Positions 22,279 through 56,041 of a stretch of 64,000 bases of DNA are shown piece by piece; within the stretch, counting starts at the first letter, position 1; the number at the start of each line of letters is the position of its first letter. Made by a program: the position numbers and the translations under genes. This stretch comes from Antarctobacter heliothermus (GTDB lineage Bacteria > Pseudomonadota > Alphaproteobacteria > Rhodobacterales > Rhodobacteraceae). The stretch covers positions 248,001 to 312,000 of the forward strand of contig NZ_CP022541.1 of assembly GCF_002237555.1 (NCBI RefSeq). The letters are read 5' to 3'. The notes beneath the pieces were generated by a model. That model did not search any database. It saw nothing but the letters and a program-made list of their open reading frames with translations, and had not been told where the DNA came from.

Positions 22279-24642
22279 ATGTTGGCCCCGATTCCCCTTA
22301 CCCTGTCTGTCGAAGGGATGTCCTGCGCGTCCTGCGTGGGGCGTGTGGACCGTGGCCTGACGGCGCTGAAGGGTGCGACAGATGTGTCGGTCAATCTGGC
22401 GTTGGAAGGCGCGCGGATGCATGTGGACTCGCCTGACCGGGCGGGTGCCTTCGTCGCCGCGCTGGCCGATCTGGGCTACCCGACGCGCACCGGGCGCGTA
22501 ACCCGGAACGTCGAGTCGATGTCCTGCGCGCCCTGCGTGGGTCGGGTGGACCGTGCGCTTGCGGCGGCTCCGGGCGTGCTGGAGGTCAACGTGAACCTCG
22601 CCGCCGAAACCGCCACCGTCACCTTTGCGGAAGGGGCCGTGCCCCCGGCACAGCTGGTTGCGACCAGCACGCAGGCGGGCTATCCGACACGGCTGGCCGA
22701 GGCCACCGACACCGAAGATCGCAGCACCCGCAAGGCCGAAGAGGCCCGCGCGCTGTCGCGGCGCATGGGCTTGGCCGCGGCGCTGGCGCTGCCGGTCTTC
22801 ATCGTGGAGATGGGCGGACATGTCTTCCCGGCCTTTCACCACTGGATCAACGCCAGCATCGGCCAGGAGACCAGTTGGGTGCTGCGATTTCTGCTGACGA
22901 CCATCGTGCTGGCCGGGCCGGGGGCGAATGTTCTACGCCAAAGGCATTCCCGCGCTGCTGAAGGGCGCGCCCGACATGAACAGCCTCGTCGCGGTGGGCA
23001 CCGGGGCGGCGTACCTGTTTTCGGTCGTCGCGACCTTTCTGCCCGGGCTTTTGCCCGGCGCACTGCGTGCCGTCTATTTCGAGGCCGCAGCTGTGATCGT
23101 CATGCTGATTCTGCTTGGGCGGTTCCTTGAGGCCCGCGCCAAGGGCCGCACTGGCGCCGCCATCGAAAAACTGCTGGGTTTGCAGGTAAAGACGGCGCGT
23201 GTGCAGCGTGGTGGCGAGACCGTGGAAATCCCGGTCGAAGAGCTGGGGCTGGGGGACATCGTGCTGGTCCGTCCCGGCGATCGTATCGCTATCGACGGCG
23301 CGGTGACCCAAGGCTCCAGCCGCGTCGATGAAAGCATGCTGACCGGCGAGCCGATCCCCGCCTCGAAGGGCCCTGGCGACATGGTGAGCGGCGGTACGGT
23401 CAACGGCACAGGCAGCATTCAGGTCCGCGCGGCGCGGGTCGGACAGGACACCACGCTGGCGCAGATCATCCGCATGGTCCAAGAGGCGCAGGGCGGGAAA
23501 CTGCCGATTCAGGGCTTGGTGGACCGCATCACCATGTGGTTCGTCCCCGCCGTCATGAGCGTCGCCGTGTTGACGGTGCTGGTCTGGCTGGTCGTCGGGC
23601 CGCAACCTGCGCTGACCATGGCCTTGGTGGCGGGCGTGTCCGTGCTGATCATCGCCTGCCCCTGCGCGACGGGTCTAGCCACGCCGACCTCGACTATGGT
23701 GGGCACGGAGCGCGCCGCCGAACTGGGCGTGTTGTTCCGCAAGGGCGATGCGTTGCAGGCGCTGGACGGGGTTCAGGTCGTGGCTTTGGAGAAGACCGGC
23801 ACCGTGACGGAAGGCCGTCCGGAACTGACCGATCTGATGCTGGCGCCGGGCTTTGACCGCGCCGGGGTGTTGTCCGTGGTGGCCGCCGTCGAGGCGCAAT
23901 CCGAGCACCCGATCGCCGAGGCCATCGTGCGCGCCGCACAGGCTGAGGGGATGAGTCTGCCAGAGATCGCGGGCTTCGCCTCGCTCACGGGCTACGGTGT
24001 GCGCGCCGAGGTCAAGGGCAGGGAGGTGTTGATCGGCGCCGACCGCCTCATGACGCGCGAAGGTGTGGATGTCAGTGCCTTGTCCGACGGTGTGGCCGAA
24101 CTGGCGAACACCGGCCGCACCGCGCTGTTCGCCGCCATCGGCGGGCAGGTCGGGGCGGTGATCGGCGTGGCTGATCCTGTGAAACCCGCCAGCAAGGCGG
24201 TCATCGCTGCTTTGCGCGCCAAAGGGCTGACCGTCGCTATGATCACCGGCGACAAGCAGGCCACGGCGGATGTCATCGCCCGCGAGACCGGCATCGACTA
24301 TGTCGTTGCCGGGGTCCTGCCCGATGGCAAGGTCGCCGCGCTGGAGGCGCTGCGCGGGGTGGTCAACGCAGCCGAGGTCTCGACCCGGACCACGCGCAAC
24401 ATTTGCGAGAACCTGTTCTGGGCCTTTGCTTACAACACCGCGCTGATCCCGGTGGCGGCGGGAGTCCTGTACCCGGTCTGGGGGGTGCTGCTGTCGCCGA
24501 TGCTGGCGGCGGGGCGATGGCGCTGTCGTCGGTCTTTGTCCTGACCAACGCGCTGCGTCTTCGCCGGGTCGCACCGGCGATGTCGGAACGGGCCGATCCG
24601 GCCCGCAACGGCGCGGCGCCGGTGGCCGCCCCGGCGGAATAA
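22279..24642 (+). pseudogene. copA: Broken Cu(I) P-type ATPase (copA)
   Basis: An otherwise CopA-like gene with four lesions. (1) An extra G in a G5 run near 22919 shifts the frame after two N-terminal HMA domains (MSCASC, MSCAPC). (2) The phosphorylation motif reads EKTGTVTEG: the catalytic Asp is Glu (codon 23789-23791). (3) The [11 protein letters not shown] segment joins directly to GVVNAAEVS (about 24350), deleting the GDGINDAPAL hinge. (4) One G is missing in the run near 24511, so the C-terminus leaves frame. CPC is present as CPCATGL rather than CPCALGL. Homopolymer lesions 1 and 4 could be sequencing errors, but 2 and 3 cannot be, so the pump should be inactive. Confidence 0.88.
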
Positions 24643-43329: not shown

Positions 43330-43877
43330 AAATGGAATGCGGAGCTCATTGACTACCAGTCCGGCAAGACAAACACGAGATGCCCGTTCGCACGTTGCAG
43401 GCGAGTGCCGCAGATGGTCGGCAGGACTAGACCGCGCTTGTTATTGGATGGCCCCCACACTATTGTCTCTGATAGCTTCAGGTGGCGGGACTTACTGCGT
43501 GATCCTTGGGTCGAGCAGGATGCTGTAGCTGCGCACCTCGAAAGAGGTTCGGTAAACCACGGTAAGGCGCACCCGCTTCAATACACAAAAGCTCAGTATG
43601 GGTTTTCGGATTTACGAGAGCTGGCATTCTCCGGTTCGAAGATCGACCGAGAAACCTGTTTGATGTCGCACGACCAAAATCTGCAGCGCTTATGGCGAGC
43701 CTCAATCGGTGAATGACCGGTTCGGGAAAAAAGACGATGGCGTTGGCGAGTGAGGGAAGAAGCGCCCGTGGCAACTGCGAGCAGATCACCGTAGCTCACG
43801 CTATACGACACGGATGTCGGATCTTTCGGTGGTGAGGTAATATAAGGGTGCAATTGCAAGCCGATAAAGCGAAAGAA
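43330..43877. other. Region without a recognisable gene
   Basis: Short frames only; one plus-strand stretch (43405-43716) has no family and no ribosome binding site. No repeats of note. Confidence 0.35.
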
Positions 43878-44222
43878 ATGAAAATGGTGTCAAAGGGGGC
43901 CGAGCTCCGCGCGCAACATGCTGACCTCGATCGGCTTGTGGTTCTTTGCCAATCGGAGTTGAGTGCGGTTCAAGTCTGGTTGTTTGGCAGCAGGGCGCGC
44001 GGCGATCACCACGCCAACAGCGACTTCGACATTCTTGCAATCTTGCCTGACGATGCCCCCGATGCAGCAGAGGACCCGATCACGGTTTTTCTCCTGCGGC
44101 GACGTTCTGGCCTGCACGCGGATCTTCTTGTCGCGCGGCTGACGGATTTTGAAGGCGCGCGCGATACCGTGAACACCATCAGTTTTATTGTTCATCGGGA
44201 GGGGGTCCGGCTGGACGTCTGA
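43878..44222 (+). CDS. Lone nucleotidyltransferase of the MNT/MntA type
   Basis: 114 residues. Active-site signature VWLFGSRARGDHHANSDFDI with the two Asp residues, and a third acidic site in LHADLLVARL. Complete minimal nucleotidyltransferase, the antitoxin half of HEPN-MNT pairs, which AMPylate a HEPN toxin. No HEPN gene is adjacent; the IS481 remnant begins 127 bases downstream and may have displaced the partner. GCGAAAGAA precedes the ATG at 43878. Confidence 0.78.
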   Translation: MKMVSKGAELRAQHADLDRLVVLCQSELSAVQVWLFGSRARGDHHANSDFDILAILPDDAPDAAEDPITVFLLRRRSGLHADLLVARLTDFEGARDTVNTISFIVHREGVRLDV

Positions 44223-45363: not shown

Positions 45364-45930
45364 CTAACAGGGGACCATTTTGGCAAGACGTTTTAGGTTC
45401 TGGGCGGTGGCGGCGAGGAGGAATTCTTCGTTGGCTCCTTTGAGGCCTCGGAGCCGGAGGCGTTTGACGCCGAGATGTCGTTTCAGGTGGGCGAATAACA
45501 TCTCGACTTTCTTTCGTCGTCGTCTGCTCTCGTCACAGGACGCCGTATCGCGCAGTTCGCGGACTGTCTGGCGCGCTTCCTCGTCCATGTGGCGGGTGAC
45601 AGTTTGGAAAGGTGCATCTGTACAGGCCTTCTTGATCGGGGATGTGCCGCAAGTGTCTTTCCCGGCGAAGTAGCTCTTGATCCGACCCTCCTTTCTGATC
45701 CGGCGCAACGGCATTTCGTGGCCTTCTAAGCAGGTATAGCTGTCACGCTCGCTATCATATTGGAAATGGCTGAGGTCGTACTTGCCCTTGGTCTGATGTT
45801 GGCGATCCAGCACCGGCACATGCGGTGTGACTTCGCACTTCAGAAGCCAGGAACGGGCCGGTGCCGTATGACCCATCTGCCGCCATGAACCGCGCCGTGT
45901 TTGCCGGAGGCTCCAACTCATGAGCAGGAT
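45364..45930 (-). pseudogene. 3' part of an IS1182-family transposase
   Basis: Readable C-terminal region: HVPVLDRQHQTKGKYDLSHF, SYFAGKDTCGTSPIKKACTD and the final DDE helix VEMLFAHLKRHLGVKRLRLR. The 5' half is missing; the break coincides with the start of the inverted-repeat arm at 45932. The frame near the break is also shifted. Confidence 0.82.
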
Positions 45931-45931
45931 T

Positions 45932-46245
45932 GACGGCCGAAACATGATGGCAAAAGCGCCGACCGGGTCAGGAATGTCGCGCGGATACAAAGTACATCTG
46001 AGTATCCTTGACTAGAATCCGTCGGAATTGTCGGAAAGTCGGAAAATGGTTTCCTTGTTGGTATGATCCTTACCCGCCTCGGGTATCCCGCCGGGGTAAT
46101 ACAAAATGGACCGCCCCTCTTGGCCATCTCTGGTCGCGGGGGGGCGCTACAAATTCAATGAGACGCGTAAAAGTGTCGGATATGTCGGAAAAGTCGGAGC
46201 GAGGCCGTTTGGCGGGCCTGTTCGGGTCTTTTTTTGGGGGGAGGG
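45932..46245 (+). repeat. Left arm of a long inverted repeat
   Basis: This arm matches the complement of 54537-54366 plus 53036-52890 at roughly nine bases in ten. Its first 83 bases encode the end of a DUF927-type protein (GRNMMAKAPTGSGMSRGYKV, then a TAG at 46012-46014). Two clusters of GTCGGA repeats follow: three units near 46020-46047 and three near 46172-46198, at 7 to 10 base spacing. The repeats look like iterons, an inference. Confidence 0.8.
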
Positions 46246-46450
46246 AGTTGGCGTAAATACGCGCCGCAAAGCTTCGGATACATTTTTCTTGACAATATCG
46301 GAATTAATTTCGAATCGCACATTGAAACCCAGAATCGCGATTCCAATATCGTAGATACCGGTCACCGGGGCGTTCGAATAAGCGGACGAAAAGAGAGTTC
46401 GCACCTCTCCTCCCGCCCTGACCAAAACGCTGACGGATAAGGTCAACGAC

Positions 46451-46930
46451 ATGGCTATCAACAATCTAAGCACCCAGTCGGGTGTGATCAATGCGGCGCG
46501 CCGTTCTTCCCAATCGTCTCACGACGCATTTGCACGCTTTCTCGCAACTCTGCCGACGCTGATTTCCAGCGAAGCGGATGTTACCGGGTACAGCGGACAG
46601 GATCCCGCCTTGGATCATTGGATCCGGGAGGCTGAGGCCGCGCGCCAGACATCTCTCGATCAGGTCGAATATCTGCACACAGAGCTGGGCCCGAATGCAA
46701 CCGGCCACGAGAGGCTGTTCTTTGAAATCGCAGCCGCCTTTCAAACCATCATGACATCCGATGACATTGAGGACGTGGTCGCCCTGCGGACGCAAGCCCG
46801 GTCGCTTCACGGGCGCCTCACTGACGAGCTGCAGGCGCTGACGATGTCGGTCGCCGCGTTGGATCGGCTTGAGAGCTATCTCGCGCTTGATGATGCGTTT
46901 GAAGAGCTGGAGCCGGGGCTCTCGTTCTAA
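46451..46930 (+). CDS. Small helical protein of unknown family
   Basis: 159 residues, no signal, almost all predicted helix: AINNLSTQSGVINAARRSSQ, DALDHWIREAEAARQTSLDQ-like region near 53-72, and a C-terminal acidic end EELEPGLSF. No motif recognised. It is the first gene of a plus-strand row (46451, 47048, 48098), spaced 117 and 45 bases from the next genes, and may be a structural or partner protein for them. Confidence 0.62.
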   Translation: MAINNLSTQSGVINAARRSSQSSHDAFARFLATLPTLISSEADVTGYSGQDPALDHWIREAEAARQTSLDQVEYLHTELGPNATGHERLFFEIAAAFQTIMTSDDIEDVVALRTQARSLHGRLTDELQALTMSVAALDRLESYLALDDAFEELEPGLSF

Positions 46931-47047
46931 ACACTTCCCCTTTTTGAACACGACCAAACGGCGGCGCGGGTTTTCTGCGCCGCGTCTTCACCGGTGGCCG
47001 GTTTTGGCCAGCGGGCCAACTTTTGCAGTTTCGAGAGGTCATCTGCC

Positions 47048-48052
47048 ATGCCCGTAGCTTCACACCAACTGAACCGCGTCTTGCATCCCGTCGTCGATTT
47101 TGAAGGCCGCGATCTGCATATCCATCGCCGCTCTCAGCACCATGACCCCAAGGTTTGGCAAGTTCGCTACCCGGGGCAACCGCTCCCGGAATGGGAAGAT
47201 ATCGCCCGGTCAAAAGGCTTCCGCATTCATGCCCGGGTCAGGGACAAAAACCATCTGGCCCTGGAGTGTCTCAGCTGCGGTGGCCTGACGGCGCAACGTG
47301 TCTTTGCGCTGAGGACCGCCAGAATCCGTTGCGAAGACTGCGCCAGCCAAAAACGGAGCACTCTCGCCGACACCATCGGGCTCGAATTTATCGAGCGGGA
47401 TCCGGCGGATCATCAATACGCCTTCTACCGCGCGGCTTGCGGTCACCGCATTCGCCGCCAACGCGAGTTCATCGACCGTGTTGCTGACGGGGTATGCCAG
47501 GTGCGCTGCGAGATATGCCTGCAGGACAAAGAAAGGGCGGAGGCCGAGGCGCGTGGCTGGGAATGGCAGGGTCCGGACCCAGACGGGAATGATAACTACC
47601 GGCTCTATCGTCACAGCTGTGGGCACGACCAACGCATCGCGCGGGCGAACATGAAGTTCGGACAATGTGATTGTGCAGGCTGCGGCGAGAGCTGGAGTTC
47701 GAAGCCCTCTTTTCTCTACCTGTTCCGCATTCGGATCCCGGACAAGGGGTTGGACTGCGTGAAGTTTGGCTATTCCGGTCGCCCGGACAAGCGCCTGCGC
47801 CATCAGCTGAGCCTGCCTAAATCCGCAAAGTCGGACGTTCTGCGCACCGTTGCGATCAAGACCGGACACGCGGCCTGTCGCCTTGAAAAGTCAGCGCATG
47901 CGCGTTTGCGGCGCAGGTTTCCGGAATGTGTTGTGCCACCGGAACGCTATGTCGGCCTGATCAACGTCTCGAGTGAGATCTATAGCCCTGCGCTTTTGCC
48001 AAAGTTGCAGCGTCTTCTTGACGAGATCGAGCAGCAGCAATCCGCAGCCTGA
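47048..48052 (+). CDS. Triple zinc-ribbon protein with C-terminal GIY-YIG-like domain
   Basis: 334 residues from ATG 47048 (GAGAGG upstream). Three similar Cys-rich modules: CLSC (74-77) with CEDC (95-98); CGH (131) with CEIC (154-157); CGH (191) with CDCAGC (207-212). The C-terminal domain reads FLYLFRI (222-228), VKFGYSGRPDKRLR (238-251) and RLEKSAHARLRRRFP (278-292), the layout of the T5orf172/MUG113 branch of GIY-YIG nucleases, with Glu280 as likely catalytic acid. The zinc ribbons would bind DNA. A related family is known for homing-type and phage endonucleases, but this exact arrangement is not one I recognise. Next to an AAA+ protease gene. Confidence 0.75.
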   Translation: MPVASHQLNRVLHPVVDFEGRDLHIHRRSQHHDPKVWQVRYPGQPLPEWEDIARSKGFRIHARVRDKNHLALECLSCGGLTAQRVFALRTARIRCEDCASQKRSTLADTIGLEFIERDPADHQYAFYRAACGHRIRRQREFIDRVADGVCQVRCEICLQDKERAEAEARGWEWQGPDPDGNDNYRLYRHSCGHDQRIARANMKFGQCDCAGCGESWSSKPSFLYLFRIRIPDKGLDCVKFGYSGRPDKRLRHQLSLPKSAKSDVLRTVAIKTGHAACRLEKSAHARLRRRFPECVVPPERYVGLINVSSEIYSPALLPKLQRLLDEIEQQQSAA

Positions 48053-48097
48053 TCTAGCCCCGCGCCCCATTCCCCGGACATTCATTGGAGGTCTGCC

Positions 48098-50224
48098 ATG
48101 ACCCAGTTCAGCAAACTTCACGGCTTTGCCGCCGCCAAAACGTACTTGCTCGAGCAAGCCCTCACAGTCAGCGACCTGTTTGAGCGGATGAGCCACGTCG
48201 ATGATGATGTGCCCGGCTGGTCTGAGAGGAAGCAGGACACCGATGACGTCCCGCTGATCGATCCGCCGGCACCCGACGCGGTCAATGGCGCACATTGCAT
48301 GCAGGCCCTCGCGATCCTGCAACTTGCCAAAACCTTTGAAGATCGCTCCTTGCCGGATCAACTGCGGGACAGGCCGCCAGTCTGCCTTACTGTGCGAGAC
48401 CATGAGATGGGCGAGTTCGTCGAGATCGCGGCCCGAGCTCTTTACCCTGTCGCTTTTGCTGCGAGCCGCAGCCCCAAGGTATGGCGCGCGCCGGAGGTCG
48501 ACACAGGCAAAACCGTCATCGCGCTGGCAGAGCGTCACCTGCGTACCTTGCTGCACGAAGGTCATACCGTCTTGATGCTCACCTCCCCGGGACAGCTGGT
48601 CTCGCCTCAACTGCAGGACCTCGTCGGCCACGGCCCGCATCTCGCGCCCCTTAGCCGCGAGATGATCCTCGCCGTTTTGTCTCTCAGCCATACGCCCTGC
48701 AGTCCTCGGGTAACGGAAGCACTACAGGCGACATTGCCGCGTTCCGAAGAGCTTGGTCGCCTGGAGACATTGAAACTCATCATGGCATTCCAAGCCGAGA
48801 CCGCTCTTGGGGTCGCCGAGCGTTTGTCGCGTTTTGCCACCACGGCCCCGCATCAAACGGGGCCCAGCCTGACCGATGTCTTCGGGCAGACGGACGCCAT
48901 AGCGGCATTCGCCCAGCTGCAAGAGGATGTCATGAGTTGGCAAGCGGGCGAGGTGGCCTGGGACCAAGTCACATCAAGCCTGCTGCTTTTTGGCCCCCCG
49001 GGTTGTGGCAAAACCCTTCTGCCGACCGCCTTCGCCAACAGTGCCAAACTGCCGCTTATCAAGACAAGCTATGCGGAGTGTCAAAAAGCGGGACACCAAG
49101 GCGATATGCTGCGCGCCCTCGACAAGGCCGTCAGCGAGGCCATCAACAGCGCGCCTTCGGTGCTCTTTATTGATGAGATCGACGCCTTTTATGCCCGCGG
49201 CGGTGACGTCCACGCCAACGGCTACATCCTTGGCGTGGTCACCGGGCTCCTTACGCAGATCGACAGACTGAATGCTTGCGAAGGCGTCATCCTTGTCGGG
49301 GCCACAAACCACCCTGACATCGTGGATGAGGCCGTCCTGCGCGCTGGCCGCTTTGATCGTCACATTGCCATCAAGCCGCTCGACATCACCGCGATCACGA
49401 CATTCTTGCAAGCCAAGCTCGGCGAGACCACCGACGCCTCTCAGCTGCGCCAGATTGCCGAGCGCATGATCGGCGCAACGGGGGCAGAGATTGATGACTT
49501 CATTCGCAAAGCCCGCACTCTGGCCCGTGAACTAAAAAGTGACCTCACCGATCAGCTCTTGCTGCGGGCCGCGAACCTCTACCTGCCGCGCCCTGACGAC
49601 AGCCTTCTGCGTCGGATCGCCGTGCACGAAGCTGGACATTTGCTCGCCGGTCACCGGCTTGGCTCGCCCCCGGTCGCCCTCGCGCGGGTCACCCCACAAG
49701 GCGGCGCCGTTCTGCGCCCCCACCGGATGATGCACACCGATGTGACCCTCCATGCCGACCTCGTCATGCTTCTCGCGGGCCGTGCCGCCGAGCAAATTTT
49801 GTGCCAATCCGTCTCAGATGGTGCCGGCTCTGGCCCGGACAGCGATCTCGCCCAGGCCACTCGACTAGCCCTACAAGCCGAGGCGCAATTCGCCTTTGGC
49901 GAGGTCACACATCTCTGGCACGATATCCGTCATCCCCCGCGCTCCTATGACGTCACGCGGGATGTGGCCCGGAGAGCGACCGCCCGCCTCAAGACAGCAG
50001 AGAAGGACGCCATCACTCTGCTCTCAGAAAACCGAGCAGCCCTGACCAAAATCGCGGACACCCTGTTTGAACAGCGCGAGATCGAAGGGCAAGCGCTGGA
50101 CCAGCTGTTGGAGGACGCGATGAGAGACCCCTCTGAAACAGAGATCGAAAACAGGGAACCCAAAACTCCGGACAGCAACGGCTCCCCCCAATCCAGCCTG
50201 TATGGAAAGTCAATCATTGTCTGA
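48098..50224 (+). CDS. Soluble FtsH-like AAA+ ATPase with M41 metalloprotease domain
   Basis: 708 residues, no membrane segment. The N-terminal 260 residues match no family I know. AAA+ module: Walker A GPPGCGKT (299-306), Walker B LFIDEID (356-362), sensor ATNHPDIVDEAVLRAGRFDR (402-421). Protease: HEAGH (510-514) and a third zinc ligand in PDSDLAQATRLAL (D583), the FtsH pattern. Classical FtsH is membrane-anchored through an N-terminal span; this one is not. GGAGG precedes the ATG. Likely degrades a specific substrate. The context (DUF927, GIY-YIG, IS elements) points to mobile DNA. Confidence 0.85.
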   Translation: MTQFSKLHGFAAAKTYLLEQALTVSDLFERMSHVDDDVPGWSERKQDTDDVPLIDPPAPDAVNGAHCMQALAILQLAKTFEDRSLPDQLRDRPPVCLTVRDHEMGEFVEIAARALYPVAFAASRSPKVWRAPEVDTGKTVIALAERHLRTLLHEGHTVLMLTSPGQLVSPQLQDLVGHGPHLAPLSREMILAVLSLSHTPCSPRVTEALQATLPRSEELGRLETLKLIMAFQAETALGVAERLSRFATTAPHQTGPSLTDVFGQTDAIAAFAQLQEDVMSWQAGEVAWDQVTSSLLLFGPPGCGKTLLPTAFANSAKLPLIKTSYAECQKAGHQGDMLRALDKAVSEAINSAPSVLFIDEIDAFYARGGDVHANGYILGVVTGLLTQIDRLNACEGVILVGATNHPDIVDEAVLRAGRFDRHIAIKPLDITAITTFLQAKLGETTDASQLRQIAERMIGATGAEIDDFIRKARTLARELKSDLTDQLLLRAANLYLPRPDDSLLRRIAVHEAGHLLAGHRLGSPPVALARVTPQGGAVLRPHRMMHTDVTLHADLVMLLAGRAAEQILCQSVSDGAGSGPDSDLAQATRLALQAEAQFAFGEVTHLWHDIRHPPRSYDVTRDVARRATARLKTAEKDAITLLSENRAALTKIADTLFEQREIEGQALDQLLEDAMRDPSETEIENREPKTPDSNGSPQSSLYGKSIIV

Positions 50225-50660
50225 AATCCCGGTTCGTCCATTATTGAATGGTTTGTCATAATCGGGCCGCGGGACGAGTTATGAAGAAACTTCGCGATCC
50301 CTTGCGGGCGGGATGAGCCGGTTTGGCCGGGAAATTCCGCGCATTTGGCCGCTTTGGTCACGATCATAACCGCTTTGGTCACTTCATAACTCCAGCTCGT
50401 TGGAGCAACGGCAGGAATTTTCTCCAAAAGATCCCTGCCCGGCGGAGGGAAGCGCAAATGCTCCGCCGTCTCGTGGCATATACCGGTGTGATCGTTGTCA
50501 GGGGTCGTTCCTGAACGGCGTTGGAGCGAACGCCGGCAGCGGGATCAAGGATCACTTCGGGCTACGATGAGCGCAAACCGTCGCTTGGCAAACTGCCCTA
50601 TTGGGACCCATAGGCGCTGACGTCAGACAACGCTCGAACGCGCCGTCCGGGCGGCCCTTC
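50225..50660. promoter_or_regulatory. Intergenic region with a 21-bp direct repeat
   Basis: Two tandem copies of CCGCTTTGGTCAC followed by TCATAA start at 50349 and 50370 (period 21). A related GTCATAATCGG is at 50257. Two full helical turns fit a regulator or initiator site. It lies between the AAA+ protease and the convergent DUF927 gene. Otherwise no gene is seen here. Confidence 0.4.
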
Positions 50661-50692
50661 AAAAAGCAGAAAAGCGCAGAAACTGCGCTTGA
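50660..50692 (-). terminator. Terminator of the DUF927 gene
   Basis: Minus strand: AAGCGCAG TTT CTGCGCTT stem-loop followed by TTCTGCTTTTTG. Lies 27 bases after the DUF927 stop. Confidence 0.78.
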
Positions 50693-50718
50693 CTGAATCT
50701 CGAACCATTTTCCGACGG

Positions 50719-52398
50719 CTATTCCTGAAAGCCCGACAATGACACTTTGTATCCGCGGTTCGCCCCGGCACCTGTGGGCATTTTGCTAAGGATATTTCGG
50801 CCGTCCCCGGGTTCAAGGCTCCCATAGGCCCGCAGAATACGTGCAACCAGTTGCGGGTCATGACGATCGAAGATCTGATCCCAGATTTCGCGCGTGAGGA
50901 AAAGATATCCATTCTTTTCCCAGGCGAGCGGTTGTTCAACATATTGCCCACCCGCATCCAGTGATTGAATTTGCTCGGCATTGTTCATTAGAAAACCTCG
51001 AATACATCGATGCAACGCCTCAGGACTATCCTCATCTTGCTGCTCCGACAGCCACTTGCCAAACAGCTCGAGGCAAGCCGAAGTGGCTGTGTACGTTGAC
51101 CAACCGGTGAGTCCAAATCTGGTCGCGAATTCACCTGCCGCCGCAATAGCAGCGAAACGTGTGCGGGCACGGCCTTCAACACCTATCCCGCTTCCGGAAT
51201 GAGCTTTTTCCGCTACTCGATGAAAACGCTGGATGAGAGTGTCTGCAAACTCCAGTCGGGCTGGAACGTTCAAGAAGAATTTTCGAAGAAACTCTGGTCC
51301 CGCCACCCCGTAATGGGTTTTGGTTCCCGCTGTCAGGTATTCGCTTAACAAGCGTCCGCTCTGTTTGTCATGCAGCTCATCGAACGCACCATGCTCATAT
51401 TCATCGACGCGTATGCCAAGTAGGCGGACATGTTGCCCTGCTTGAACCTTCTTGTTCCCCTCAGCCAATTTTGTTGCAACGCAAATCTCACCTGTCGACA
51501 AGACTGGCAAGTGCCAGCTGGTTATTGGTGTCGATTTGCCATTTGCTCTCCCGCGCGCCTTGCCACGATTATTTCCCAACATATAGATGGTCTCGCCCAC
51601 AACTTGTGCGCTGGCTTGGCCCATCTCATCGATACACAAGACCATACCATTCGCATTCTTTGCCTGCGTTTCAAATGCGGTATCTGTACTTCGCCACGAC
51701 GCAATCTCGTTCGGTGAACTCCAAATAGAGGCCGCGGTGCGCAGTAAAGTGCTTTTCCCGCAGGACGAGCCTCCCCAAAAGTGAATCCCACCACTTTCAA
51801 GACCCAAAGGCTCCATCAAAGGGCCGGAAAATCCTGCGGAGATGGCAACGATCATGGGCGCGTTCCCGACAGCAAGACTTGCCACGTTCTCTCTCCATCC
51901 CTCCAGTGTCCCACATGAAGATTTAGCATTGAGGTCCTTGTCTCCAGTGAATTTAACCAACGGGCTGCCGATCACTTTTGTGCTCGGCAGGACGAAGGCA
52001 TCCTGCTTTAACCAGCCGAGCTTTTCGGTGGTCGTAATGCGCTTTTCGGGGATCCATTGCGAGAGCAGTGATATGAGTTGCTTGGCGGCCCCTGGCGTTT
52101 GTTCAATCGTAAAGCCGAGGCTTAGAAGCTCTGCGATAATTGCAGTGCCGCCCGTCGCAAACCTCTTGGCTTCAATGATGATTTCGCGCCTTTGAGAATC
52201 AATCGTGACGAATTCACACAGACGTCCATGGTTCTGCCCGTAAATGTCCCGTGTGATTGCCCGAACACAAATCCAGTCACTTATCCTTTCCCAGACTGGT
52301 GACCCTTTCTTGGGATTGATATAGGCATAGACGCCATCGTTGTTCACATCGAAGCCTGCAGGCGGCGTCAATATTTCGGATGTCGTTTTTGTTGGCAT
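50719..52398 (-). CDS. DUF927-domain ATPase (P4-type helicase relative)
   Basis: 559 residues. N-terminal DUF927 region with RREIIIEAKRFATGGTAIIA and ITTTEKLGWLKQDAFVLP; ATPase core with Walker A GGSSCGKST (209-217) and Walker B MVLCIDEMGQ. The C-terminus ends MPTGAGANRGYKVSLSGFQE. DUF927 proteins are found in integrative and satellite elements, some fused to primases. AGGAGACTCAT precedes the ATG. Two 3' remnants of relatives lie at the arms (45932, 54403), so this gene family has moved repeatedly here. Confidence 0.87.
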   Translation of the reverse strand: MPTKTTSEILTPPAGFDVNNDGVYAYINPKKGSPVWERISDWICVRAITRDIYGQNHGRLCEFVTIDSQRREIIIEAKRFATGGTAIIAELLSLGFTIEQTPGAAKQLISLLSQWIPEKRITTTEKLGWLKQDAFVLPSTKVIGSPLVKFTGDKDLNAKSSCGTLEGWRENVASLAVGNAPMIVAISAGFSGPLMEPLGLESGGIHFWGGSSCGKSTLLRTAASIWSSPNEIASWRSTDTAFETQAKNANGMVLCIDEMGQASAQVVGETIYMLGNNRGKARGRANGKSTPITSWHLPVLSTGEICVATKLAEGNKKVQAGQHVRLLGIRVDEYEHGAFDELHDKQSGRLLSEYLTAGTKTHYGVAGPEFLRKFFLNVPARLEFADTLIQRFHRVAEKAHSGSGIGVEGRARTRFAAIAAAGEFATRFGLTGWSTYTATSACLELFGKWLSEQQDEDSPEALHRCIRGFLMNNAEQIQSLDAGGQYVEQPLAWEKNGYLFLTREIWDQIFDRHDPQLVARILRAYGSLEPGDGRNILSKMPTGAGANRGYKVSLSGFQE

Positions 52399-52889
52399 AT
52401 GAGTCTCCTATCTTGATGGTTGTGGTAAACGTTGTGTCTGTCGAATTATTTCAACATTATCCAAAATTCACATTCACCACGGTTTCCGGTTGAGAAGGGG
52501 ACATAGGTCCAAAAATGCAGAAGCGGAGGGATTTCAAAACTTTTTCTCAATTTTTTTTGAAAGTTTTTTGTGGATAACCCCCCTCAGGCGCCGATTTTGC
52601 GATCTTCTAATGTCTCGCTTGCGCCAATTTGCTACTGTTTTTTTATGATGCCGCGTTCTCGGATTGGCACCGCAATTGTAGCTAGCAATTGCAGTTTTAT
52701 TGCACTGATTGCATGCGTGGTTTCTGACCTGCGCCCTGATCCGATCCCCGGAAGCTGGACAGTTTGATGCGGGGGTTTCCGCTACGCTTTCCCCGGCATC
52801 TTGGCGATGAAGCGAGCCTGCTTTTCCCAAAGGGCCTGTCCCAAGCGGGACGGAGGCTTCAGCGCGGATGATGAAACCAGCGAGCGTCG
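52399..52889. other. Upstream region of the DUF927 gene with an IS3 end remnant
   Basis: AT-rich 5' part with a palindrome CAATTGTAGCTAGCAATTG (52672-52690), a possible operator. From about 52748 the sequence GCTGGACAGTTTGATGCGGG resembles the left end of the IS3 element at 29251, so an IS3 end is left behind. No convincing gene. Confidence 0.45.
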
Positions 52890-53036
52890 CAACAAAGCCC
52901 AACTCCCCCATAGATCCGGACAGGCCCGCCGGACGGCCTCATTCCGACTTTTCCGACATATCCGACACTTTTGCGTTTCTTATTGAATTTGAGGCGCCGC
53001 CCGCGACCAGAGATGGGCAAAAGGGGCAGTCCATTT
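52890..53036 (-). repeat. Right arm of the inverted repeat, distal part
   Basis: Complement of left-arm positions about 46108-46250, including the second GTCGGA cluster. Separated from the rest of the arm (54366-54537) by the IS256 insertion. GTCCATTT (53029-53036) is the target copy. Confidence 0.78.
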
Positions 53037-54357
53037 GAGCTACTGTCAAATCTGGTGTCCAAGCGATCATCATGCGGCGGCTTGATCCTGGTTTGATGAC
53101 TTGATGCCGTTGACGAAGTCGACGCCTTCAATGACGTCCGCGAGATGATCGAAGCCGCGCAGTTTGCGCCAGCTTTTCTCAGCACATTGGCCGAGCTTGA
53201 ACATCATGTGCAGCATGCCGTCGCGGCTGAGGCACCCTTTGGTGCGCTTGGTTCGGTGTCGGATCGTGGCGAAGGCGCTTTCGATCGGGTTTGACGTCCG
53301 GATGCTCTGCCAGTGCTGAGCCGGGAAATCGTAGAAGGTGAGAAGCTCCTCCCTGTCCTTGATCAGGCATTCGGTGGCCTTGGGATATTTCGCTTCGAAG
53401 GTTTCGATGAACAGATCGAAGGCGGCATGCGCATCCTCGCGTGTCTCGGCCTGCCAAATGTCGTGCAACATCTTCTTGGCTTTGGGCTGGGTTCGCTTGG
53501 GCAGGTAATTCAACACATTGCCAGTCTTGTGCATCCAACAGCGCTGTTGACGCGTGGCAGGACAAATCTCTTCCAGCGCCGCCCAGAACCCCATGGCCCC
53601 GTCGCCGGTGGCCAGTTTGGGGGAGGCAAGGCCGCGGCTTTTCAAGGACAACAACACCTCGCGCCAACTCTGCGTGCTTTCCCGAACGCCGTCCTTGATG
53701 GCGAGAAAATGCTTTTCACCTCGTGCGTTAACGCCAATGACAACCAATACACAAAGCCGGTCATCGGTTCCGCGCAACCCGCTGTAGATACCATCCGCCC
53801 ATTGCGCTTTCAGCCGTGAGACCGTTTTCGCCGAGAACCCGGTGGCATCCGGGCCGAGGAGCATCTTCAGAGCCGCGCCCATCTCACCCGTTGAGATGCC
53901 CTTCAAATACAGCCAGGGCAGCGCGGCGTCGATGGATTTGGCCTTTCGGACATAGGGCGGCACAAGTGCCGAGCGGAACGTCACCGGCTTGCCGTCCTTC
54001 GCGCGCACCTTCGGCACTTTCACCGTGACCGGCCCGATCCCCGTCTGCACGGCCCGCTCAGGGTGATACCCGCTGCGCACAACCGCCGCGCGGTCGTCAG
54101 ATGTCCGGCGCTCGGCAAATTCAGCCAGAAAAGTATCCCTCTCAGCTTCAACAGCGGCCTGGAGAAGTTCCCGAGCCCCTTTTCGCAGAAGATCAGTCAG
54201 AGGGTCCGTGACAGCGTCTCGACCTGAAAATTCGACGATGGTAGTCTCGTCCATGATGGTGGTGCTCCTTTGGTTGGTGGCTTGTGTTGCAACAACAAAC
54301 CAACCAGATGCACCGCCGTCATTCAAACCGCCCGGACACCAGATTCACCCATAGCTC
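53037..54357 (-). mobile_element. IS256-family element with 8-bp target duplication
   Basis: 1321 bp. Ends GAGCTACTGTCAAATCTGG and, inverted, GAGCTATGGGTGAATCTGG. GTCCATTT is duplicated at 53029-53036 and 54358-54365, the 8-bp length normal for IS256. Recent insertion into the right arm. Confidence 0.92.
53070..54254 (-). CDS. IS256-family transposase (MULE domain)
   Basis: 394 residues from MDETTIVEFSGRDAVTDPLT. Contains GIGPVTVKVPKVR, the DDE region VLVVIGVNARGEKHFLAIKD, LATGDGAMGFWAALEE and SNPIESAFATIRHRTKRTKG with the catalytic Glu. Complete. An upstream ATG at 54326 is in frame but lies close to the element end. Confidence 0.92.
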   Translation of the reverse strand: MDETTIVEFSGRDAVTDPLTDLLRKGARELLQAAVEAERDTFLAEFAERRTSDDRAAVVRSGYHPERAVQTGIGPVTVKVPKVRAKDGKPVTFRSALVPPYVRKAKSIDAALPWLYLKGISTGEMGAALKMLLGPDATGFSAKTVSRLKAQWADGIYSGLRGTDDRLCVLVVIGVNARGEKHFLAIKDGVRESTQSWREVLLSLKSRGLASPKLATGDGAMGFWAALEEICPATRQQRCWMHKTGNVLNYLPKRTQPKAKKMLHDIWQAETREDAHAAFDLFIETFEAKYPKATECLIKDREELLTFYDFPAQHWQSIRTSNPIESAFATIRHRTKRTKGCLSRDGMLHMMFKLGQCAEKSWRKLRGFDHLADVIEGVDFVNGIKSSNQDQAAA

Positions 54358-54365
54358 GTCCATTT

Positions 54366-54537
54366 TGTATCGTCCCGGCGGGATAACCGAGGCAGGTAAG
54401 AATCATACCAACAAGGAAACCATTTTCCGACTTTCCGACATTTCCGACGGATTCCAGTCAAGGATACTCAGATGTACTTTGTATCCGCGCGACATTCCTG
54501 ACCCGGTCGGCGCTTTTACCATCATGTTCCGGCCGTC
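54366..54537 (-). repeat. Right arm of the inverted repeat, proximal part
   Basis: Complement of left-arm positions 45932-46110, including the first GTCGGA cluster. On this strand the DUF927-type reading frame has TGG where the left arm has TAG, so it stays open further. Confidence 0.8.
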
Positions 54538-54675
54538 ACCGAATGACAAGAACACCCGCTTCTCAAGTGCATGCGCTGCCTTTCTTGGGTCCATGCTTCC
54601 ATGAATCATGGACCATGTCTCACGTGGCAGAAAAGCAAACTGGTCTTTCCGGAACACCAAAGGTGGCATTGCCAA
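54403..54675 (-). pseudogene. 3' remnant of a second DUF927-type gene
   Basis: Readable end: LVFRKDQFAFLPRETWSMIH, FGDGRNMMVKAPTGSGMSRG, then YKVHLSILD. This is the same C-terminal pattern as in the intact gene at 50719 (FLTREIWDQIF, GDGRNILSKMPTGAGANRGY). Cut at its 5' side by an IS6-type end near 54667. Confidence 0.78.
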
Positions 54676-54913: not shown

Positions 54914-56041
54914 ATGGCTTGGAACTGGACGCTGCCCGGTTGGCCGGATTTCCGGTATGACGCCTCCACTTTGGAGCCGTTTGAGCAGACGTTCCTGCTG
55001 TCGTCCGGAGAAATCCGCGGCGCGGTCCATCATGTCAGCCAGCCGGAGCGCGAGCAACTCCGCATCGAACTGCTCATCGAGGAAGCGATGCAAACGAGCG
55101 CCATCGAGGGTGAAATCCTCGACCGGCTCAGTGTCCAGTCCTCGCTGCGCCGCCATCTAGGCCTCGATCCGGACAGCTACCCTGCCAAACCGCGCGAACA
55201 GGGCGTCGCGGAAATGATGGTCGACGTCTACTCCAGTTTTGCAGAGCCGCTGACCCATGAGACACTGTACCGCTGGCATCGGATGCTCCTGTCCCATGAC
55301 CGTCGGTTGGAAACCATCGGGGCCTACCGACGCCACGCCGAGGCGATGCAAATCGTTTCCGGCCGCCTCGACCGGCCCACGATCCATTTCGAAGCGCCTC
55401 CCTCAGAGCGGGTCATGCCTGAGATGGAGCAATACGCGGATTGGTTCAACAAGACTGGGCCGGGGGGAGCAGAGCCGCTTCCAGCGCTGACGCGCGCAGG
55501 GCTAAGCCATCTCTATTTCGAGAGCATCCACCCATTCGAAGACGGCAACGGCCGCTTGGGTCGCGCCCTCGCTGAAAAGTCGCTGGCGCAGAACATTGGC
55601 CAGCCGACCCTCATCTCGCTCGCCTTCACCATCGAGAAGGAGCGCAAGGCATACTACGACCAGCTCGAGCAGCATCAAAAAACGCTTCAAGTGACCGATT
55701 GGCTCGTCTGGTTCGCGGAAGTTGTCTTGAAGGCCCAACAGGCAACACTCGACCGCGTCGGCTTCTTCATCAGCAAGGCGCACTTCTACGATCGTCACAG
55801 AGACCACTTGAACGAACGCCAGGCCAAGGCCATCGCTCGAATGTTTCGGGAAGGCCCTGGCGGTTTCAAAGGCGGCCTCAGCGCCGACAACTATCTCAAG
55901 ATCACCGGAACTTCACGTGCAACCGCAACCCGCGATCTGCAGGATCTAGTCGAGAAAGGTGCGCTCAGCCGAACTGGAAATCGACGCCATACGAGGTACT
56001 GGTTGAACCTGAATCCACGGGCGGCGAACCAGCTACAATGA
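54914..56041 (+). CDS. Fic-family AMPylase-like protein with N-terminal inhibitory motif
   Basis: 375 residues. N-terminal DUF4172-type region holding the autoinhibitory motif TSAIEGE (61-67), the Fic motif HPFEDGNGRLGRA (206-218) with all catalytic residues, and a C-terminal winged helix (ITGTSRATATRDLQDLVEKG). Such proteins transfer AMP from ATP to target proteins; the SAIEGE glutamate blocks ATP orientation until released. No separate antitoxin gene is needed or seen. Intact. Flanked by IS6 elements. Confidence 0.88.
   Translation: MAWNWTLPGWPDFRYDASTLEPFEQTFLLSSGEIRGAVHHVSQPEREQLRIELLIEEAMQTSAIEGEILDRLSVQSSLRRHLGLDPDSYPAKPREQGVAEMMVDVYSSFAEPLTHETLYRWHRMLLSHDRRLETIGAYRRHAEAMQIVSGRLDRPTIHFEAPPSERVMPEMEQYADWFNKTGPGGAEPLPALTRAGLSHLYFESIHPFEDGNGRLGRALAEKSLAQNIGQPTLISLAFTIEKERKAYYDQLEQHQKTLQVTDWLVWFAEVVLKAQQATLDRVGFFISKAHFYDRHRDHLNERQAKAIARMFREGPGGFKGGLSADNYLKITGTSRATATRDLQDLVEKGALSRTGNRRHTRYWLNLNPRAANQLQ

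Follow-up and report, generated by a model that had tools for sequence, protein, structure and literature searches.

The window analysed here, a 64,000-nucleotide stretch of Antarctobacter heliothermus DNA, lies on the 372-kb contig C2 of a genome of four contigs (C1-C4), and our subject is a cassette of three consecutive plus-strand genes within it (positions without a contig or locus label refer to the window). ORF159, the first cassette gene (46451-46930), encodes a predicted all-helical protein of 159 aa without a family match. It is followed by a gene for a predicted nuclease of 334 aa (47048-48052) with three tandem zinc-binding modules and a C-terminal GIY-YIG domain of the T5orf172 type, and by a gene for a soluble AAA+ ATPase/M41 zinc metalloprotease of 708 aa (48098-50224), whose approximately 280 N-terminal residues have no assigned fold. 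The nuclease frame has possible starts at 46994 and 47048, and the closest homologue record (P0121) begins at the codon of 47048. A full-length DUF927 helicase gene on the minus strand (gene b, 50719-52398; Pfam DUF927, E 5.5e-56) converges on the cassette, and all four genes lie between two arms in opposite orientation, exactly as a preliminary description of this DNA had placed them. Below, individual loci carry the letter L and sampled genomes the letter G, with G000 denoting the genome that contains the window.

Relatives of the nuclease were aligned as 35 GIY-YIG homologues (168 proteins were found, of which 120 were listed), and a search with this alignment gave 78 loci from GTDB genomes, which by their titles belong to Rhodobacterales save for Martelella and one record labelled Maritalea; scanning genome contigs with the single nuclease protein gave no relative. 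Flank counts out of fewer than 78 loci refer to those with enough flanking sequence, and the queries include rows from the same loci. Of the 70 loci that extend 1.2 kb or more beyond the GIY-YIG gene on its 3' side, 65 have a protease gene there on the same strand, and of the 75 that extend 1.4 kb or more on the 5' side, 67 have an ORF159 homologue ahead of the nuclease gene. The latter count is based on the rows or the profile of the ORF159 alignment alone, with 22 of 25 query rows stemming from counted loci. Gene order and strand are identical in loci of Paracoccus, Sulfitobacter, Leisingera, Roseovarius, Martelella and others, and 46 of 73 loci additionally carry a ribbon-helix-helix (RHH, CopG-type) gene on the opposite strand, with an RHH_1 match in L084. 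Of 198 genomes sampled from the family, 11 contain the GIY-YIG gene, at 15 places in all, and the protease accompanies it at 12 of these. Cassette-type proteases, which we separated from true FtsH proteins (about 250-275 bits) by a score above 300 bits among the best five or fewer candidates per genome, accounted for at least 16 rows in the same genomes: 12 next to a GIY-YIG gene, three next to a PD-(D/E)XK-like gene and one next to neither (G193). ORF159, nuclease and protease form a real conserved unit, and this architecture is well supported. The part of the preliminary description that paired the nuclease with a dedicated protease has thereby stood, both in the loci and across the genomes. 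It is hardly credible that insertion sequences (ISs) threw these genes together without any functional unit; several IS copies do lie in the region, but the recurrence of the same order and strand across genera refutes a chance grouping of ORF159, nuclease and protease.

Outside the family, the search for GIY-YIG relatives in a sample of Alphaproteobacteria gave no match in 384 genomes besides the own genome, and 50,697 phage records yielded one weak match. In IMG/VR, a single locus was found (L191, on a 55.6-kb contig counted as viral), which holds ORF159, nuclease, protease and a large serine recombinase. Several loci depart from the usual arrangement. In L116 (7561-10300, on C1 of G150), the GIY-YIG gene is followed, as judged by eye, by a Lon-like AAA+ frame that replaces the M41 protease, with a large serine recombinase beyond it, and this frame is a possible second kind of partner. 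The GIY-YIG place of G071 runs into a recombinase, and that of G081 has neither a recombinase nor a Lon-like frame. In three Donghicola loci without protease (L033, L034 and L062), a ParA-like gene follows the GIY-YIG homologue (assigned by Pfam in L062 and by eye in the others), and L062 additionally bears a DUF927 gene.

The 708-aa protein matches the Pfam families AAA (E 1.7e-28) and Peptidase_M41 (E 4e-12). Its Walker A and B residues, the arginines of the second region of homology (SRH), the HExGH motif and a later Asp, residues with assigned roles in AAA+ and M41 enzymes, are all invariant in a 16-member alignment, and both the HE.[GA]H and the Walker A pattern are present in 63 of the 67 proteases used for tree construction (the exceptions being L057, L074, L082 and L091). 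A 19-residue Kyte-Doolittle scan detected no transmembrane-like stretch in the 708-aa protein, with a top mean of 1.10 in the window and 0.96-1.62 across the 16 members. The earlier reading as an untethered FtsH-like protease agrees with these data. FtsH shares the AAA and M41 domains and the HExGH motif with the cassette protease, which differs in the lack of a transmembrane-like stretch and hence of predicted membrane anchoring by N-terminal helices, in its approximately 280 N-terminal residues and in being encoded in an operon of its own. Against the NCBIfam equivalog for FtsH it reached 147.6 bits at a cut-off of 600, whereas a 263-bit match on the own chromosome (G000:C1:266778) probably represents the true FtsH.

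For the nuclease, membership in the GIY-YIG superfamily, to which T5orf172 belongs, has moderate profile support. The window protein matches Pfam T5orf172 with an E-value of 0.0053 and 17.7 bits, below the cut-off of 20, and the own genome gave no T5orf172 match at E 0.001; 5 of the 35 homologues match at E 0.01 or better, and the homologue from G039 exceeds the cut-off with 24.7 bits. Comparison with T5orf172 segments by hhalign, using a template set that includes one wrong-strand segment, gave a probability of 20.6 and an E-value of 0.0011 (0.54 for a control with the zinc part), and the nuclease profile found no GIY-YIG entry among its four matches to PDB sequences up to E 1. Gly241, Arg249 and Glu280, which presumably have catalytic-type roles, are invariant in all 35 sequences. 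The structural model (pLDDT 90.7) consists of repeated strand-strand-strand-helix zinc modules followed by a C-terminal GIY-YIG-like order, with strand-strand-helix-strand-helix in residues 221-290. Three plasmid homologues are annotated as "GIY-YIG nuclease family protein". Residues and model order agree with the zinc-ribbon GIY-YIG protein of the preliminary description, but the domain match in the window itself stays under the cut-off.

The nuclease is not the same in all cassettes. In three of the four protease rows without a GIY-YIG gene among the 198 genomes, a protein of about 190 aa is encoded between an ORF159-like gene and the protease gene. Twelve relatives of this protein were found in a large protein set, four of them with precomputed PF11645. 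When eight proteins were scanned with Pfam, P0249, P0251 and P0252 scored above the PDDEXK_5 cut-off, P0246 slightly below it and the L114 protein at E 0.0076, and no PDDEXK_5 match was obtained for P0245, L113 and L112, the last being the protein of the own chromosome. The motifs G.A.E and Q[VI]K are present in all 13 aligned sequences. A search of 394 genomes with this alignment gave nine matches in seven genomes (E 1e-6). All eight strong matches (E of 1e-50 or lower) have the protease after them and ORF159 before them (seven by tblastn, L114 by profile with E 2.8e-16), and five of the eight were found after the family had been defined and had no part in its definition. Neither ORF159 nor protease lies within 1.5 kb of the weak ninth match (G005) or of a weak match in G148. 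In a tree of 67 protease rows, the type of the associated nuclease switches four times, with four switches forced by starred branches, in a topology that stems from a quick search with no bootstrap and contains several long branches. The proteases of the window and of the PD-(D/E)XK-linked cassette on the own chromosome are 69% identical and sisters in this tree (SH-aLRT 100). This chromosomal locus (L112, C1:2669000-2688000) is the third cassette of the genome and adjoins genes for an N6/N4 DNA methylase and a ResIII/SNF2 helicase. The remaining copy is a sister cassette on C3, which shares 5.1 kb with the window at 96% identity.

Many cassettes are located in mobile DNA. Downstream, a gene for a large serine recombinase is present in 18 of the 50 loci that extend 4.5 kb or more in this direction, in 10 of the 40 that extend 7.5 kb or more, and in six of eight fetched PD-(D/E)XK loci; a relaxase was found in 8 of the 59 loci that extend 6.5 kb or more upstream. 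Relatives of the nuclease occur on 14 plasmid records, from which seven regions were fetched. By tblastn, all seven contain the nuclease and three the protease (L193, L195 and L197). The plasmid of Rhodobacter sp. CZR27 displays the annotated order RHH, hypothetical protein, GIY-YIG nuclease family protein, AAA family ATPase and recombinase family protein; ahead of this cassette (L193, 194-5928) are a hypothetical gene and one that encodes a SIR2 family protein of about 1260 aa. Among seven locus pairs that were compared for common DNA, the longest common block extends from ORF159 to the protease in L056/L065, L070/L094, L181/L182 and L050/L063, the last pair sharing two further, shorter upstream blocks at 94-96%. 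L070/L073 have 9.8 kb in common including the recombinase, L033/L034, which lack the protease, share two blocks, and in L013/L112 the common DNA is limited to 2.0 kb of the protease. Since common DNA is distributed in this way, the cassette appears often to have been exchanged as a block and sometimes together with more.

The presence of both nuclease types beside large serine recombinases, together with the relaxase genes, may suggest that nuclease and protease assist excision, transfer or replication of a serine-recombinase element, for example by turnover of the recombinase or of an accessory factor. We consider such a service function quite unlikely. In 32 of the 50 loci that reach 4.5 kb or further downstream, and near the window and C3 copies, no recombinase was found; the two PF07508 matches of the own genome are both on C1, and the swap of an unrelated nuclease into the same slot is more easily reconciled with a generic effector that cuts DNA than with a site-specific role.

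The neighbourhood also contains restriction genes. The nearest 126 of 376 flank proteins were compared with 126 of 201 control proteins (18 regions), and among the 25 commonest families the flank proteins match restriction, transposase and SRAP domains, whereas the controls match transport, metabolic and regulatory domains. We treat this restriction signal as qualitative. Type IIG restriction enzymes adjoin L052, L054 and L085. By eye, brx-like genes were seen next to L038, and type I-C cas-like frames near the serine recombinase of a GIY-YIG cassette in G013 (L119, 1-5400).

Fixed order and strand, catalytic motifs, repeated exchange of the nuclease, and a mobile and partly restriction-bearing neighbourhood are the observations from which our interpretation starts. 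Because ORF159, nuclease and protease form a conserved cassette in mobile Rhodobacterales DNA in which the nuclease is sometimes swapped, the cassette may represent a new kind of protease-controlled nuclease. We propose, with a probability of roughly 50%, that it is a mobile three-gene nuclease-protease system in which a dedicated protease controls an exchangeable DNA-cutting effector for defence against phages or other elements. The core would be the mobile set of ORF159, nuclease and AAA+/M41 protease, which is often preceded by a divergent regulator gene of the CopG type (RHH). That one slot can be filled by either of two unrelated nuclease folds points to a generic cutting effector, which could be of the GIY-YIG or the PD-(D/E)XK kind, and a dedicated unfolding protease points to control by proteolysis. 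The soluble AAA+ protease might control the nuclease either by removing an inhibitor, for which ORF159 is a candidate, or by processing the nuclease itself, and this step would be set off by a trigger, for example phage or plasmid DNA that enters the cell. The carriers, large-serine-recombinase elements and plasmids of Rhodobacterales, would thereby be defended against phages and competing elements. Protease control, the part played by ORF159, the trigger and the defence function are what we infer from these observations, and action against phages or other elements is probable.

The same genes could alternatively constitute an addiction module of a mobile element, in which the nuclease is a toxin, ORF159 or the RHH protein a labile antitoxin and the AAA+ protease its dedicated degrader, such that loss of the element harms the cell. 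The small gene ahead of the nuclease, the frequent RHH gene on the opposite strand and the location on plasmids and beside recombinases would all suit such a module. The likeness to type II toxin-antitoxin systems, where a small protein encoded with the toxin neutralises it, is one of gene order. Known antitoxins are generally degraded by host proteases, whereas the cassette supplies its own protease, which is nearly as conserved as the nuclease, and RHH matches are absent near the window and C3 copies. An addiction function deserves consideration but appears unlikely.

Several results weigh against a protease-controlled defence system. The protease is missing from five GIY-YIG loci (L033, L034, L059, L062 and L093), from the GIY-YIG places of G071, G081 and G150 among the family genomes, and from four of seven plasmid regions (L192, L194, L196 and L198). 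These plasmids belong to Paracoccus jeotgali and three Sulfitobacter, and the Sulfitobacter nuclease relatives are about 37% identical; since four of the seven regions lack the protease, the nuclease family extends beyond the cassette. A recombinase was not found in 30 of 40 loci with at least 7.5 kb downstream, in addition to the 32 of 50 mentioned above. Foldseek searches of PDB with the models of the nuclease and of ORF159 returned nothing at E 0.001 or better. ORF159, whose model is helical with modest confidence (pLDDT 72.8), has no Pfam or NCBIfam match and only a weak match to PADLOC DrmC (E 0.015), and we regard its inhibitor role as that of a candidate only. PADLOC-DB has no model that covers the cassette, and the AAA stretch of the protease alone matches IetA and TRIP13 models. 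The PADLOC families in flanks and controls (147 versus 14) were counted per family and not per protein, a procedure that over-counts restriction enzymes, and they were not used as a statistic. The provisional protease tree is a further point of this kind.

Comparison with described systems places the proposed protease-controlled nuclease among known principles. IetAS also combines an AAA ATPase with a protease, but the IetA models match residues 290-473 of the cassette protease only, and in the cassette the M41 domain is fused to the ATPase. The protease partner in IetAS is a separate S8 protease; according to Pfam, the cassette contains no S8 or other protease gene besides M41. Pairs of nuclease and protease genes are found in Hachiman, AVAST, Lamassu, DRT and canu loci, where, in the passages considered, an inactive proenzyme nuclease is freed by the protease (PMC12799240). 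The likeness to the cassette consists in the pairing of the two genes, while those passages concern an MBL-fold nuclease and trypsin- or caspase-like proteases, in contrast to GIY-YIG or PD-(D/E)XK and AAA+/M41 as assigned by Pfam. A term search of its main text showed that the words M41, FtsH, metalloprotease, GIY-YIG and AAA are absent. Release of a pro-nuclease by its partner protease is the nearest described logic. SNIPE likewise employs a GIY-YIG nuclease in defence but is a membrane protein with DUF4041, and the passages of its description mention no partner protease gene (PMC13190303). A description of a cassette like the present one was not found in titles, abstract starts and passages of the open-licence literature. 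Pairing of nuclease and protease is already known, whereas the AAA+/M41 core with an exchangeable nuclease appears to be new.

The window copy of the cassette is flanked by IS copies and by what is left of DUF927 (rep-like) genes. The preliminary description had treated the flanking arms as a single sequence in opposite orientation that might border the unit or form the ends of a self-copying element. Their similarity is no chance likeness: 45931-46111 and 54358-54538 are 94% identical over 181 nt, and the match continues for about 120 nt on each side (46104-46143/52997-53036, 90%; 46139-46229/52912-53002, 86%). On the right, however, the arm is split into two minus-strand parts (54358-54538 and, by repeat comparison, 52912-53036) by a minus-strand IS256-family copy with inverted ends (53037-54357) and an 8-bp target duplication (53029-53036/54358-54365), and neither arm is a neutral border. 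The left arm (45931-46229, plus strand) is reached by a frame with a DDE transposase match, which belongs to an IS remnant on the minus strand (45364-45930; DDE_Tnp_1_6 in frame 45364-45990) whose end at about 45930 we placed by the start of the arm.

When the own genome was searched with the gene b protein, seven matches were obtained, two full-length DUF927 genes and five 3' ends, and both arms are among the five. Lone DUF927 3' ends are scattered across C2, C3 and C4 (L003, L004, L005, L006 and L007), and it is always the 3' end that is present. The left arm and the sequence following it match C3 with 92% identity over 498 nt, and the C3 counterpart comprises the 3' end of gene a, a complete DUF927 gene for a protein of 599 aa, and the spacer that precedes ORF159. 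Since this match places the arm at the end of a complete gene a, each arm is, judging by sequence comparison, the end of a gene a together with the DNA that follows it; the left arm contains this 3' end up to about 46003, and the first part of the right arm contains that of another gene a copy, with a remnant reading frame at 54403-54675. The C3 cassette is intact and reads DUF927 gene a, spacer, ORF159, GIY-YIG, AAA+/M41 and a 3' remnant of DUF927 gene b. Of the two arms it has just the left one, which occupies its native position between the full DUF927 gene and ORF159, so the arms are not borders of the unit and their reading as element ends is rejected.

A DUF927 gene stands directly upstream on the same strand on C3 and on the plasmids of P. 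jeotgali (L192) and P. versutus (L197), and it is thus a recurrent but facultative neighbour of the cassette. It was found in the flanks of just 6 of 78 loci and in two of seven plasmid regions. Across the 198 genomes, with the gene a protein as query, DUF927 was present in six and the GIY-YIG gene in 11, and both were found only in the own genome. When the co-occurrence check that the preliminary description had suggested for the four proteins was run in this way, nuclease and protease were mostly together, but DUF927 as a fixed fourth member was rejected on the counts, even though it recurs. A single mobile element with the arms as its ends and DUF927 included would account for the arms that truly flank the four window genes and for the upstream DUF927 genes of the three cassettes named; it is very improbable, because the arms are 3' parts of DUF927 genes, DUF927 is rare in the flanks and the C3 copy already contradicts it. 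Gene b and the right arm may have been assembled by ISs through chance.

The sequence 3' of gene a, including the left arm, holds two triplets of GTCGGA with 8-9 bp spacing. GTCGGAAA occurs in 12 copies in the window compared with 2.4 expected, and 8 of the 12 lie within the arms or close to where gene b ends. In the stretches examined 3' of DUF927 in L038, L043, L053, L062 and L087, GTCGGA triplets were not found, and no repeats were conserved downstream of other DUF927 genes. A 9-mer which we take to be DnaA-box-like (52569-52577) is a candidate element in an AT-rich stretch upstream of gene b. Short tandem copies of a further repeat, CATAACCGCTTTGGTC, were seen by eye 3' of the protease gene (L013, 15840-15910, and window, 50360-50390), more of them on C3 than in the window. 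As stated in passages of PMC7581432, Cch contains DUF927 and is related to SaPIBov1 Rep, and origins of SaPIs, which have short repeats, are located just 3' of the rep genes. The short repeats just 3' of DUF927 gene a and the large serine recombinases beside cassette relatives resemble SCC elements and SaPI Rep as portrayed there. The window copy differs from SCC in that no ccr-type recombinase is nearby, DUF927 gene b reaches 40.3 bits against NCBIfam SCCmec Cch1 at a cut-off of 700, and DUF927 is facultative. By analogy, the arms may be remnants of a rep end and a putative origin, and DUF927 with its downstream repeats may formerly have been a replication module; since the other DUF927 genes examined lack the triplets, the origin remains a conjecture.

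Beyond the right arm and adjoining it, a Fic-family protein resembling SoFic is encoded at 54914-56041 (PADLOC, E 1.3e-42). A small nucleotidyltransferase (NTP_transf_2) is encoded elsewhere in the window, at 43848-44222. The whole segment 25001-58000 has a G+C content of 0.50-0.64 per kb, below most of the first 25 kb, and contains many transposase frames; a tRNA-Ser gene at 24310-24395 lies ahead of it.

Taken to the level of the family, the data tentatively suggest, at slightly less than even odds, a mobile immune family, not described so far, with the soluble AAA+/M41 protease as its fixed core and a plug-in nuclease, mostly of the zinc-module GIY-YIG and otherwise of the PD-(D/E)XK kind, which would have been exchanged about four times, with ORF159 as gate or sensor and with spread in Rhodobacterales via serine-recombinase elements and plasmids. 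If this is true, AAA+ unfolding proteolysis would join trypsin- and caspase-like cleavage as a means of nuclease control in bacterial immunity, and repeated replacement of the nuclease fold beside a constant protease core would distinguish the part that senses from the one that only cuts. At about 3.8 kb, the cassette is small, and it is recurrent; it provides a shared context for ORF159, the GIY-YIG protein with zinc modules and the soluble M41 protease, three groups that are poorly described.

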